Of a DNA stretch of 43,075 bases, positions 38,056 through 43,075 are shown in pieces; within the stretch, counting starts at the first letter, position 1; the number at the start of each line of letters is the position of its first letter. The DNA is taken from NCBI GenBank assembly GCA_002862205.1, contig PKCN01000012.1, forward strand, positions 1 to 43,075, in the 5' to 3' direction. Under the pieces are notes generated by a model that was given only the letters and a program-made list of their open reading frames with translations, searched no databases and was not told the origin of the DNA. The translations under genes and the position numbers were made by a program. The DNA comes from Planctomycetaceae bacterium. Its GTDB lineage: Bacteria; Planctomycetota; Planctomycetia; Pirellulales; Pirellulaceae.

Positions 38056-38473
38056 AGTTGATTTTCCACGTTGGACATGCTTCGGCTTGAACGCAGGGTC
38101 AGGTTATACGTCCACGTCCTTAAGCCTCCATCGGCAGGCAGAATCGTGATGATTGATAAAATCGGAATAATCGGACGAACTTTCTCATTCTCGCCAAGTT
38201 ATCATCGGGAACGGCCGGTTGGTCGATGGATGTTGAGTGGGCACACGTTTTGTTGGCATTGTGGTGGCGATAGCATCGTGGGAACGCTTTGCTGTTGATT
38301 GCGTCCAATTGACGTGACCACGCCCATCTGGATGCCGGATTGAGGATGCCGGATTGAGGGTGCTGGCGTGATGTGTGCAGTGCCTTGTGTCGCCTGTTGT
38401 CACCAAGGGCAGTGCCAGTGTTGGGCATGATGGAGAGCCTGATGCCGTGTTTTTCCCTCGTAAATTGGATTTG
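38056..38473. other. Divergent intergenic region with a 14-bp duplication
   Basis: 418 bases between the barrel gene and the giant surface protein gene. GGATGCCGGATTGA is repeated perfectly at 38330-38343 and 38344-38357. No ORF or RNA gene is supportable. Both promoters should be here but none is obvious. Confidence 0.6.
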
Positions 38474-41400
38474 ATGAAACCAAGCCCTCCCTCGCATCGC
38501 TCGAAACGCGGTTGCTCGAAGCGTCAAGTGCTTCGGCGGCGGAAGCTGCTTCGTAGGCTTTCACTTGAGCCGCTTGAAGAGAAACGGCTTCTTGCGGTCT
38601 TTGCGGTAAACAGTGTTGCGGATGCTGTAGACCAGAATCCAGGTGATGGGATTTGCGAAGTTGCTCCGGGAGGATCGTGCACTCTGAGAGCGGCAATCAT
38701 GGAGGCCAATTCATGGGGGAGCAGCGAGCAGTCTGATCAGATCGCGATACCTGCTGGGGAGTATGTATTTTCTTTGCCTGGAAACGGGAATCTGGCGGGC
38801 GATCTCGATATCACACAATCGGTAATCCTGACCGGTGCCGGTGCCGCAAACACGTTCATCGATGCGAACGGGTTCGATCGGGTATTTGATGTGCAAAGTG
38901 GGAGTGTCGAAATACGTGGTGTCACAATTCGTGGCGGCGTGGTTGATGACACGGAGGCTTTGCTGGAGGGCACTGGTGGTGGAGTGCGAAATGAAGGGAC
39001 GTTGGTGATTGCCGACAGTGTTGTGACCGGTAATCGGGCGACGCGTGGCGCAGGTCTGGGCAATTACAACGGTACCTTGAACGTTCAACGTAGTGTCATT
39101 ACTGGCAATGGAGATGCCTCGACTCAATCTGGTGGTGGCATTGAGAACTATTCGTATTACGATCCCGCTTCGCTGTCTGTTACCGACAGTACGGTATCTG
39201 GTAACCGGGCAACCAATGGCGGCGGATTGAATAACCATGCTTACGACGGCGTGGCATCTGCAGTGTTGTCAGGCAGTACGATCTCCGGGAATAACGCGGA
39301 GGTAGGTGGCGGAGTTGCAAATCGAGCGGTGTACTATGCTGAGCAGGGCGCCAATGCTGCATTGACCATCGTTGGCAGTACCGTGTCGGGAAATGTGGCT
39401 TCGCAAAGTGGCGGAGGAGTACATAGTCAAGCGACTTCCGATAGTGCGGCAACCCTGAGCATCAGCAATAGCACGATTGCGGAGAACACAGCCGCCGGTG
39501 GAACAGGAGGTGGCATTCATGTCGTCGACGGTCCGGGAGTGAGTGCGATGCTCACGAGCGTGCTGGTGGGTGATAACACCGCAGTGGGCGCCGGGCAGGA
39601 TCTGGCAAGTGTATCGCTGTCAGCAAGTTACTCGCTGGTTGAGACAACCAATGGACATGGCCTGGTCAACGGTGCGAACAACAATCAGGTGGGTGTCGAT
39701 GGGCAGATCTCAGGATTGGCTGATAATGGTGGTTTAACGTTCACGCATGCGGTCGCCGCAGGAAGTCCGGCCATTGACCAGGGGTCAAATCCAAACGGAC
39801 TTTACGGTGACCAACGCGGCAGCGGGTTTGCACGCATCGTCGATGATGGGACGGTAACCAACGCCAGTGATGGGACAGATGTGGGATCCATTGAGGTAGG
39901 CCAGATCGGGGCAGTTTATGATTTTGGTGACGCCCCAGATTCAATCATGGTTGGGGGAACGCAACGATCGTACCCGTCTCTCTTGGCGTCTGATGGGGCG
40001 CGTCATCAGGTGGTGGTTGGTGGCCCCCGTTTGGGAACGGCGGTTGCCGATCCGGAAGCGGATGCCTTTCCCGCTGCCAACGCAAGTGGCGATGATCTCG
40101 TTGGATTTGACGATGAAGATGGACTCGCGTCCACTGGCATCACACTGACTCCCGGCACCCTGATGGATGACCTGCTCCTTTCCCATGATGTGGGCAGTCT
40201 GGGTGCATTCTTGAATGTCTGGATTGACTTGAACATTGATGGTGATTGGGATGATTCGGGTGAACAGGTAATCGATGATCTGGCTGTACCTCCCGGAGCG
40301 TCAATGACCTCGCTGGACGCGGTTCAGGTTCCCCTGGGAATGCCCGCTGGTACAACGTTTCTGAGAGCCCGGATCAGTACAGAATCAGGACTCGAGGTAA
40401 CCGGTGCGGCAGTGGATGGTGAGGTCGAGGATTTTTCGCTGGCGGTGGGCAGTGCACCAACTCAAATCGCTGATCTTTCCATCGCTAACGTTGTCGACAA
40501 TTCCGAACCCGGGCTGGATGACACCGTTCGGTTTTCGGTCAGCGTGATGAATTCTGGTCCCGTGGCCGCCACAGGGATCGAAATCTCGGCGCTGCTGCCG
40601 TTCGAACTGTTCTTCCAGTCTGCACAAGCCAGTCTTGGTGTGTACGACGATTTCGATGGATTGTGGCTGCTTGACCAACTCTTGCCAGGTCAGTCCGCTT
40701 CCTTGCAAATTGACGCCATCGTGGAAACAACTGATCCCGTTATATTGACGGCGGAAATTGTTGCTTCAGACCAAGCAGATTCGGATTCGACACCCGGCAA
40801 CGGGATTAGCAGTGAAGATGATCAGGCAACTGCCGCGTTGGGTACGTGTCTTGCCGCCGCTCCCTTGCATTCAGGGTTGAATAGTCTGCGATATGTTTGT
40901 GCTTCACCCGGAGCCTTCACGGGATTTGTTCGTGGCACCGAGAGAGGAACAACAACCTTCCCGGATTATCAAGTGACCGTTGATATTGCCAATGCTGAAC
41001 AAATGGCGATAGGGATTGCAGATGGAAACGGCGTGGCCGAGGTGCTTGTTCACGTCGAAGAGGCGGCACTTGGTGAAACGTTTTATGTGCAGGCTTTCGA
41101 AATGTTTCCGGCTGTGCAAAAAGGAAACACTCTTTCGTTAGGGGAAGCAGAACAGTTTCTTCGAGCGGCGAATATCGGTGCCGGAGCCGAAAAGCTGCAG
41201 AAAGAAGTGCTCCAGCCAACTATTCTTCAAGCGCTGACAAGTTGGCACTCTGCGGGAGCCGATTCAGCTGTATTGAGGAAACTTGCCAACGTTTCAGTGA
41301 CCATTGCTGATCTACCAGGTAACGTGCTTGCGAGAACAGTGGGGCGCGCGATTGTGCTTGATCAAGATGCTGCCGGAAATGGCTGGTTTGTTGATGCCTC

Positions 41401-42151
41401 GCCTTGGGATCAGATTGAGTTTGGTGGCATCGAGGGCGCGGGTTACGCAATCAGTGGAGCAGCATCGAACAGGATCGACCTGTTGACCACACTGACGCAC
41501 GAGTTTGGCCACCTGTTGGGGCTTGATGATTCTCGTAACGTCAATGATGTGATGAACTATCTGCTGGGGACTGGGCGTCGAATCTTGCCTCAGCCGTCTG
41601 ACTCCTCTGAGAGTGATTTCGATATTAGCCGAGATGGGAAGGTCACGACGTTGGATGCGTTGTGGGTGATCAATTACCTCTCTCGCCAAGACACGGCAAG
41701 TCTCGACGGTAGGTTTTGGAACGGTCATCAAAATATGGATTGGGCACCACTGGACACCAATCGGGATGGGCGTTTAAGTGCGATGGACGCACTCCACGTC
41801 ATCAACCATATTTCGCGCGTGCAGGCGGCGACCGGGGAGGCGGAACAAAGCGGATTGCCCAGTACAACCCAGGTGCGAACCATGTTGGTCGATAACGTGC
41901 ACTCCGAAATATTGCGTGATGGGTTTGGGCGGGCTGTCGGTTCCAATGCGCCTCGTGCTGAATCTGCCGTTCAAGGCCGTGGGAAAGCAACGAACTCGCA
42001 GGATTTCCAATTCCAAAGGGTGGGGCCAAACCATATTGAGCCAGCAGCACCTGGTAACTGCGTCTCGCGAGCCACAGGGATCGCGGCGATTGACGCTCTG
42101 TTATCGAACAGAGAGGACGCAGTTTTCAAGCACTGGAAACCGCGTGACTGA
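38474..42151 (+). CDS. Giant multidomain surface protein: beta-helix, GEVED, DUF11-like, metalloprotease-like and dockerin modules
   Basis: The protein has 1225 residues from the ATG at 38474, ahead of the planctomycete export-type N-terminus (RRRKLLRRLSLEPLEEKRLLAV); the frame is open to 38375. In order: CTLRAAIMEANS near 69-80 (CSLREAI-like), right-handed beta-helix repeats rich in SGNRATNGGG (to about 430), a choice-of-anchor end (AIDQGSNPNG, DVGSIE), a GEVED domain (about 481-655, DFGDAPDS, GFDDEDG, VEDFSL), a DUF11/CARDB-like domain (666-786), a module ending in the zinc motif HEFGHLLGLDDS (about 1009) with a Met-turn-like DVMNYLL, and two dockerin-type calcium loops (DISRDGKVTTLDALWVINYL and DTNRDGRLSAMDALHVINHI). 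It is probably an adhesin or exoprotein with possible self-processing; protease activity is inferred. Confidence 0.9.
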   Translation: MKPSPPSHRSKRGCSKRQVLRRRKLLRRLSLEPLEEKRLLAVFAVNSVADAVDQNPGDGICEVAPGGSCTLRAAIMEANSWGSSEQSDQIAIPAGEYVFSLPGNGNLAGDLDITQSVILTGAGAANTFIDANGFDRVFDVQSGSVEIRGVTIRGGVVDDTEALLEGTGGGVRNEGTLVIADSVVTGNRATRGAGLGNYNGTLNVQRSVITGNGDASTQSGGGIENYSYYDPASLSVTDSTVSGNRATNGGGLNNHAYDGVASAVLSGSTISGNNAEVGGGVANRAVYYAEQGANAALTIVGSTVSGNVASQSGGGVHSQATSDSAATLSISNSTIAENTAAGGTGGGIHVVDGPGVSAMLTSVLVGDNTAVGAGQDLASVSLSASYSLVETTNGHGLVNGANNNQVGVDGQISGLADNGGLTFTHAVAAGSPAIDQGSNPNGLYGDQRGSGFARIVDDGTVTNASDGTDVGSIEVGQIGAVYDFGDAPDSIMVGGTQRSYPSLLASDGARHQVVVGGPRLGTAVADPEADAFPAANASGDDLVGFDDEDGLASTGITLTPGTLMDDLLLSHDVGSLGAFLNVWIDLNIDGDWDDSGEQVIDDLAVPPGASMTSLDAVQVPLGMPAGTTFLRARISTESGLEVTGAAVDGEVEDFSLAVGSAPTQIADLSIANVVDNSEPGLDDTVRFSVSVMNSGPVAATGIEISALLPFELFFQSAQASLGVYDDFDGLWLLDQLLPGQSASLQIDAIVETTDPVILTAEIVASDQADSDSTPGNGISSEDDQATAALGTCLAAAPLHSGLNSLRYVCASPGAFTGFVRGTERGTTTFPDYQVTVDIANAEQMAIGIADGNGVAEVLVHVEEAALGETFYVQAFEMFPAVQKGNTLSLGEAEQFLRAANIGAGAEKLQKEVLQPTILQALTSWHSAGADSAVLRKLANVSVTIADLPGNVLARTVGRAIVLDQDAAGNGWFVDASPWDQIEFGGIEGAGYAISGAASNRIDLLTTLTHEFGHLLGLDDSRNVNDVMNYLLGTGRRILPQPSDSSESDFDISRDGKVTTLDALWVINYLSRQDTASLDGRFWNGHQNMDWAPLDTNRDGRLSAMDALHVINHISRVQAATGEAEQSGLPSTTQVRTMLVDNVHSEILRDGFGRAVGSNAPRAESAVQGRGKATNSQDFQFQRVGPNHIEPAAPGNCVSRATGIAAIDALLSNREDAVFKHWKPRD

Positions 42152-42515
42152 AGAAGCCCGATGGTGGGCTGACCGCTTTGGCAATCCAATGTGCAGTATA
42201 TTGCATGATGGCAATGAGTGTTGTGCTGTGTGCTAAGGGTCGGCCAGCTCGGCCTGATCCTCTGTTTGCAGCCCACCAGAGTGACCGCCCGTGCATGTTC
42301 GCCTGCTGACACCAGCAAGAGGCGAAAGCGCCGCAAGAGGAAGAAGAAGGAAGCGACGTGTGGGCCGCTTAAGGCCGAGTAAGCAAGCTTAAATGAGCTG
42401 TGGGAGTCCGGCCCTCAGAATATCCACGTCTCGCCCCACGGCGTCGCCGCAACCTGGCCTCGGAATACGCGGAGACGTCGAGGAAACCAAGGTAACAAAG
42501 TAATACAAGTTAAGG
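42152..42515. other. Junction region between bacterial and foreign high-GC sequence
   Basis: No planctomycete-like gene lies here. On the plus strand a frame open since before 42240 ends at a TAA at 42380-42382 with a very basic tail (KRRKRRKRKKKEATCGPLKAE). An acceptor-like CTGACACCAG just before this tail would suit a eukaryotic last exon. AT-richer spacer follows to 42515. The change from bacterial to foreign DNA must fall between 42151 and about 42516; I cannot place it more closely. Confidence 0.45.
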
Positions 42516-43075
42516 TCAGGAAAACGCCTCGTCCAGCTCCTCCCTTCGAGCCATGAGCAGCTCACGCGCCTGGGTAAGCCTCGACTCCGTCGACCTCGTG
42601 CCAAAAGCCCAGAGCACGTCCTGGGGCGGCGCGAGCCCCATCGGCGGTCGGAGCGCGCGCCACGCCGCGAACGACACGGCCCGCAGCTCGTCGATCTCGG
42701 CGGGCGTGTCGACGACGTCGCCGTACGCGTCGCGGAGCGGCGCGTCCGCCTCGAAGTCGCACTCGGCGGCGGCCGCGAGCGCCGCCGCCGCGGCGTCGGC
42801 GAGCGGCCGGTCGACGCCGATGTCGAGCTCCTCGGGCGTCCCCCGCAGCGCCGCGCGGATGAAGTCGTGGTGCCGGCTGCAGTCGTCCGCGAGCGGCCGG
42901 AGGCGGTGGACCGCGTGGACCTGGGACGACGACGACGCGTCGAAGGACGATCCCCGTCAGCGGCCGCGGCGCCGCCGCGACCCGCGTATCAGACGCCGGC
43001 GCGCCTACGGGACTCTGCTTGATCTCGTCGACCCACGCGTCCTCGAGAACCGCGCTGCCGCCGACGGCGGCGACG
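42516..43075 (-). CDS. Partial GC-rich, probably eukaryotic gene with one intron
   Basis: Stop TGA is at 42516-42518; the gene runs off the right edge, so its N-terminus is missing. Exon 2 (42518-42920) encodes an Ala/Asp/Glu/Arg-rich protein (for example FIRAALRGTPEELDIGVDRP, STESRLTQARELLMARREEL, ending DEAFS). Exon 1 (43009-43075) encodes VLEDAWVDEIKQSP in a different frame. Removing 42921-43008 joins the two in phase. Third codon positions are almost all G or C, unlike every gene in 1-42.1 kb. I do not recognise the family. A GC-rich alga is my guess for the source. Alternatives are a frameshifted gene from a GC-rich bacterium, or sequencing error at the frame change. Confidence 0.5.
42921..43008 (-). 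other. Putative spliceosomal intron, 88 nt
   Basis: Read on the minus strand it starts GTAGGC and ends CCCAG, with a branch-point-like GCTGAC about 50 bases before the acceptor. It contains in-frame stops for the exon 2 frame. Its removal keeps a phase-0 junction between CCC and GTC codons. No transcript evidence is available here. Confidence 0.4.

Follow-up and report, generated by a model that had tools for sequence, protein, structure and literature searches.

A foreign GC-rich fragment at the end of a Planctomycetaceae contig, most probably left there by chimeric assembly

Introduction

In the passages on GUNC drawn on here (PMC8201837), misassembly that produces chimeric contigs is presented as a recognised, though fairly uncommon, kind of error in metagenome-assembled genomes, and the corresponding passages of a review on contamination (PMC8862208) describe chimeric sequences arising when similar regions are merged in metagenomic assembly. 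The locus considered in this study almost certainly belongs with such cases. The window, that is, the whole stretch of DNA that was analysed, is the entire contig C36 of a Planctomycetaceae assembly (G000:C36:1-43075; 43,075 bp), and the DNA of anomalous composition lies at the physical end of this contig. The source assembly comprises 7.77 Mb in 451 contigs, with listed values of 98.73% completeness and 2.88% contamination; its genes are consistent with a planctomycete.

A first-pass annotation of the same DNA had put forward an assembly chimera as its leading reading. This reading is upheld by the native continuation of the locus on another contig (C290), by the gene order of congeners and by the chimeric far end of C290 itself, and on these sequence comparisons the end of C36 is almost certainly an assembly chimera rather than a biological feature. 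The features discussed below are as follows.

38375..42151, plus strand: native planctomycete gene beside the junction, encoding a 1258-aa protein with DUF11, GEVED, matrixin (M10) and dockerin-type matches (ORF list, Pfam, congeners)
42031..42197, plus strand: last native stretch, overlapping the end of C290 (164 of 167 positions identical)
42197..42198, no strand: most likely chimeric join, where the window and the reverse complement of C290 diverge (sequence comparison)
42198..42515, no strand: probably foreign and probably non-coding or gene-end sequence, GC 0.56-0.58 (composition, comparison of loci)
42516..43075, minus strand: GC-rich foreign coding sequence, 3' part of a gene with its stop at 42516 (ORF list, codon-position GC, shuffles)
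42921-43008, minus strand: possible 88-nt GT..AG intron, not established (GT..AG ends, frame join, shuffles)

The breakpoint and the native continuation

Contig C290 (7,727 bp, same assembly) ends in 167 nt that correspond to window positions 42031-42197, with 164 identical positions and three mismatches. At 42198 the window departs abruptly from the continuation of C290, which encodes an M16 peptidase, a Rieske protein, a methyltransferase and part of an M3 peptidase, and whose GC content lies between 0.47 and 0.57 except at its far, chimeric end. When positions 42152-43075 were compared with the whole genome, the one other match consisted of the 46 native bases common to C290. The first-pass annotation had the sequence change from about 42516, and the comparison with C290 corrects this position, since the window leaves native sequence already at 42198; the breakpoint is best placed at 42197/42198 rather than near 42516. 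It is simplest to assume one break at this point. There may be another closer to 42516, because the 318 nt of 42198-42515 have a GC of 0.56-0.58 and returned no match at E up to 0.01 among the loci compared, except those of the same place.

The gene order of congeners was then set beside this arrangement. The last native gene has counterparts encoding proteins 70-71% identical in five congeners, all above 1300 bits, and an M16 gene follows convergently in four of these five (G005, G007, G008 and G018), so that gene order in four of the five closest relatives agrees with the native continuation. In G018 only 86 aligned nt of the M16 gene precede the contig end, and in the fifth close congener, G017, the contig is cut after the counterpart of the last gene. 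This adjacency was seen only beside the closest copies, those giving the five strong hits; among the weaker hits, G012 (a 54% identical copy) shows no M16 match within more than 12 kb downstream, G015 shows none in the less than 800 nt left before its contig end, the contig of G014 ends after the last-gene match, and the match in G006 covers 185 residues and lies on a contig other than that of its M16 gene. Because of the C290 overlap together with the M16 gene order in congeners, the native chromosome is taken to continue on C290, and the final 878 nt of C36 to be foreign. Foreign-like sequence reaches the contig's physical end, and the native continuation is found on another contig, as would be seen in an assembly chimera.

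Within the region 42149-42156, C290 carries T for G at 42150 and at 42156. The T at 42150 abolishes the stop of the 1258-aa gene and, as read by eye, would add seven residues, so the C-terminus of this gene differs between C36 and C290. The 167-nt overlap with its three mismatches suggests strain variation here, and the last bases of C36 may come from another strain.

Composition and coding signal of the GC-rich end

The background GC content, measured in 400-nt windows over positions 1-42000, has a mean of 0.534 and a range of 0.47-0.59. At 42501-43000 it rises to 0.736, and the jump to very GC-rich DNA noted at first pass therefore stands, from about 0.53 to this value. Segment by segment, GC content is 0.578 at 42198-42382, 0.556 at 42383-42515, 0.747 at 42516-42922 and 0.773 at 42923-43010. 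On the minus strand, the frame 42956-42516 has GC fractions of 0.755, 0.544 and 0.932 at codon positions 1, 2 and 3, respectively, and the codon-position GC spread of 42516-42920 was reached by none of 1000 dinucleotide shuffles. The earlier description of a minus-strand frame with G or C at nearly every third position is thus borne out, both by its GC3 and by this periodicity. Since no shuffle attained the codon-position pattern, the minus-strand frame ending at 42516 looks like coding DNA, in a style very unlike that of the adjacent native gene, whose GC3 is 0.525 as against 0.93. The plus-strand basic tail described as ending at 42382 is likewise present; Pfam gave no match for its 54-aa frame, nor for two other short frames there.

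The earlier annotation had also reported an 88-nt GT..AG segment containing CTGAC, whose removal joins two frames. Such a segment exists on the minus strand at 43008-42921, and with it removed the two frames are joined, with G or C at 20 of 22 and 126 of 134 third positions. What does not hold is the claim that the frame opens only if this segment is removed, as the real sequence has 50 GT..AG segments of 50-200 nt that open the frame, and the same effect follows from 397 single-base deletions or C insertions. At least one frame-opening segment was present in 381 of 500 shuffles. In favour of an intron, none of the three unspliced frames is open through the whole 560-nt stretch, although such a frame occurs in 215 of 500 shuffles. 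GC3 of at least 0.92 was reached by a rescued frame in none of 500 shuffles, compared with 3 of the 50 real candidates, the 88-nt segment (0.930) among them, and this reveals the periodicity of coding DNA together with a switch of frame from one piece to the other. An intron and a frameshift error would both explain this switch equally well. Frame rescue by GT..AG segments is no commoner than chance (381/500 shuffles), and the proposal that an intron marks the DNA as eukaryotic is accordingly not supported; on the shuffle control and the single-base check, the intron was rejected as a diagnostic.

Affinities of the foreign protein

Searches with the foreign protein returned little. It matched no Pfam family, and its single match in the PDB, to a cytochrome P450 at E 0.011, is not convincing. 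In the collection of genome contigs, a scan reaching close relatives only gave one weak match of 39 columns (L022). Viral contigs gave none, and tblastn against plasmids and phages likewise returned nothing at E up to 0.01. At the DNA level, 42152-43075 had no match in plasmids and 42198-43075 none in phages, and Rfam had none in the window at the gathering score.

In the 391 other genomes of the phylum, the only weak match to the foreign protein lies in G226, a member of the same family as the window's genome, with 37% identity, 29.1 bits and an E of 4.3e-6 for one genome. By tblastn the match scores 41-43 bits over about 100 residues (35% over 101 columns at 41.2 bits), which exceeds the best of 30 shuffled queries (28.1 bits), the shuffles having been run on the smaller search space of the compared loci. 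The matched ORF in G226 encodes 229 aa, shows no Pfam family above the cut-off and lies near an ORF that resembles an integrase by eye. A distant relationship may be indicated by this alignment. Naming a family from it was considered and rejected, the match being too isolated.

The donor of the GC-rich fragment was probably eukaryotic, for example a microalga, with coding regions biased towards GC. A eukaryotic donor is the likelier because GC content falls outside the coding frame and because the far end of C290 is cathepsin-B-like. The GC3 of the two foreign pieces differs, at 0.93 on C36 and 0.72 on C290, and each may have had its own donor.

A second chimeric contig end

Positions 1-531 of C290 (locus L003) hold a fusion of cathepsin-B-like and M3 peptidase sequence, so that the assembly has another chimeric end besides that of C36. 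The first approximately 510 nt encode a papain-family fragment (PF00112, 2.6e-22 in Pfam), whose best solved relative is procathepsin B (1pbh, 1.9e-26 in the PDB), and this fragment breaks directly into approximately the last 296 residues of an M3 peptidase. In the ten best congener rows the M3 counterparts lie within open frames of 699-756 aa, and shorter frames of 138-614 aa occur in G007, G009, G010 and G012. DNA identity to the M3 genes of seven congeners begins at C290 nt 508-510, and the cathepsin protein match extends to residue 175, that is, to nt 525; at least 16 nt at this join therefore fit both genes, with conserved residues in two different frames. The word common to both genes may be as long as 21 nt. 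A join inside a shared word can be produced by a de Bruijn assembler at a small word size, or by template switching during library preparation.

The cathepsin-like piece was found in none of 21 congeners and in none of the viral contigs, and in the 391 other genomes of the phylum it gave weak hits of at most 29.6 bits in five. Its papain family has one match in G000, on C290 itself. The same family also turned up in 3 of the 14 prokaryotes used as controls, and the C290 piece can therefore be called eukaryote-like but not demonstrably eukaryotic.

Contig C169 (L132, 9780-10664) carries another M3 peptidase, which shares 83% identity with that of C290. In congeners, searches at E up to 1e-60 gave one M3 match in 20 of 21, with two adjacent pieces in G009. 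The copy on C169 is either a paralogue or contamination from a related planctomycete.

Contig ends across the assembly

Exact end overlaps of one size are a mark of a de Bruijn graph whose final word is about that size. In G000, six contig pairs share exactly identical ends of 123 nt, as counted over 61 whole contigs and 19 contig starts out of 451, and because of these overlaps the assembly points to a de Bruijn method. The C36/C290 overlap, at 167 nt and inexact, departs from this pattern.

The contigs surveyed were chosen by number, not randomly, from the 451. Of these, 83 were taken whole, C36 and C290 included (a first pass covered 62 contigs, 40 of them readable), and 22 of the 83, all shorter than 3,000 bases, came out as N and were set aside, which left 61 whole contigs that, together with the 19 contig starts, provided 141 ends. 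The foreign end of C36 has the highest GC content of all 141, at 0.767, followed by a runner-up value of 0.608 that is common to the chimeric end of C290 and one other end. Since C290's chimeric end equals another end in this respect, screening by GC content would miss joins of its type, and no rate of chimeric joins is given for this reason.

Two further contigs of the assembly overlap at their ends, the 3' end of L068 with the 5' end of L134, over hundreds of bases at 94-97% identity, which suggests a strain mixture or a repeat.

Competing explanations

The end of C36 almost certainly arose in assembly: a de Bruijn-type assembler working on mixed DNA passed from the planctomycete to a fragment of another organism at 42197/42198 and left 878 foreign bases on the contig's end, and the true continuation of the chromosome is C290 with its convergent M16 peptidase gene. 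A join at a short word common to both genomes would be the most likely mechanism, as suggested by the at least 16 nt on C290; chimeric library reads would provide an alternative giving the same picture. The same assembly error with a GC-rich bacterium in place of a eukaryote as donor is unlikely. In its favour, a GC3 of 0.93 would likewise be typical for a bacterium rich in GC, the intron is not established, and the planctomycete match in G226 scores above the best shuffled query. Against a bacterial donor, GC content drops to 0.556-0.578 outside the coding frame, a fall that most GC-rich bacteria do not display, and apart from G226 the protein has only the 39-column genome match from the close-relative scan and none in plasmids or phages at the tblastn threshold. 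The first 67 nt and the remainder also share one GC3 pattern but not one frame, which is what an intron would produce, and the cathepsin-B-like piece of C290 hints that the sample contained eukaryotic DNA, though proteins of eukaryotes are abundant in the PDB.

It is highly improbable that eukaryotic (algal) DNA was truly inserted into the bacterial chromosome, or into that of one strain. The contig does run unbroken through the junction, and the three mismatches in the C290 overlap mean that two haplotypes may exist; the narrower version, in which one strain carries a eukaryotic insertion 3' of the dockerin/M10 gene and the ancestral locus persists in the strain to which C290 belongs, is nevertheless extremely improbable. 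The assembly itself contains the native continuation, which agrees with the gene order of the closest congeners, the foreign piece reaches the contig end with no return to bacterial DNA, another contig end is chimeric too, and none of the 21 congeners has the cathepsin-like piece. Transfer from a eukaryote to a bacterium would leave host DNA on both flanks, and here the segment ends with the contig. With the native continuation found on C290, real gene transfer was rejected. Equally improbable is a genuine planctomycete GC-rich island formed by a recently acquired bacterial gene: the match in a genome of the same family would fit it, but that match is the sole one in the phylum's 391 other genomes, its ORF lacks a Pfam family and sits by an integrase-like ORF, and natively the chromosome continues on C290. 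An assembly chimera is the reading retained.

Comparison with known systems

Foreign fragments, probably of eukaryotic origin, sit on no fewer than two contig ends of this assembly, and neither checks based on prokaryotic marker genes nor prokaryote-based quality scores would be expected to see end fragments of this kind. The frame at 42516-43075 and the cathepsin/M3 fusion on C290 should consequently not be taken as planctomycete genes or as evidence of transfer between kingdoms.

Lateral gene transfer from a eukaryote to a planctomycete would resemble this locus in that DNA of foreign composition is joined to planctomycete DNA; it differs in that here both the assembly and close congeners have the native locus without interruption, and no second flank is present. 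The locus is like the chimeric contigs described in the cited GUNC passages (PMC8201837) in that fragments of different genomes occur in one contig, here with a de Bruijn signature in the assembly that contains C36 and C290 and, at one of the two joins, a short shared word. It differs from them in that the foreign part is probably eukaryotic and confined to contig ends.
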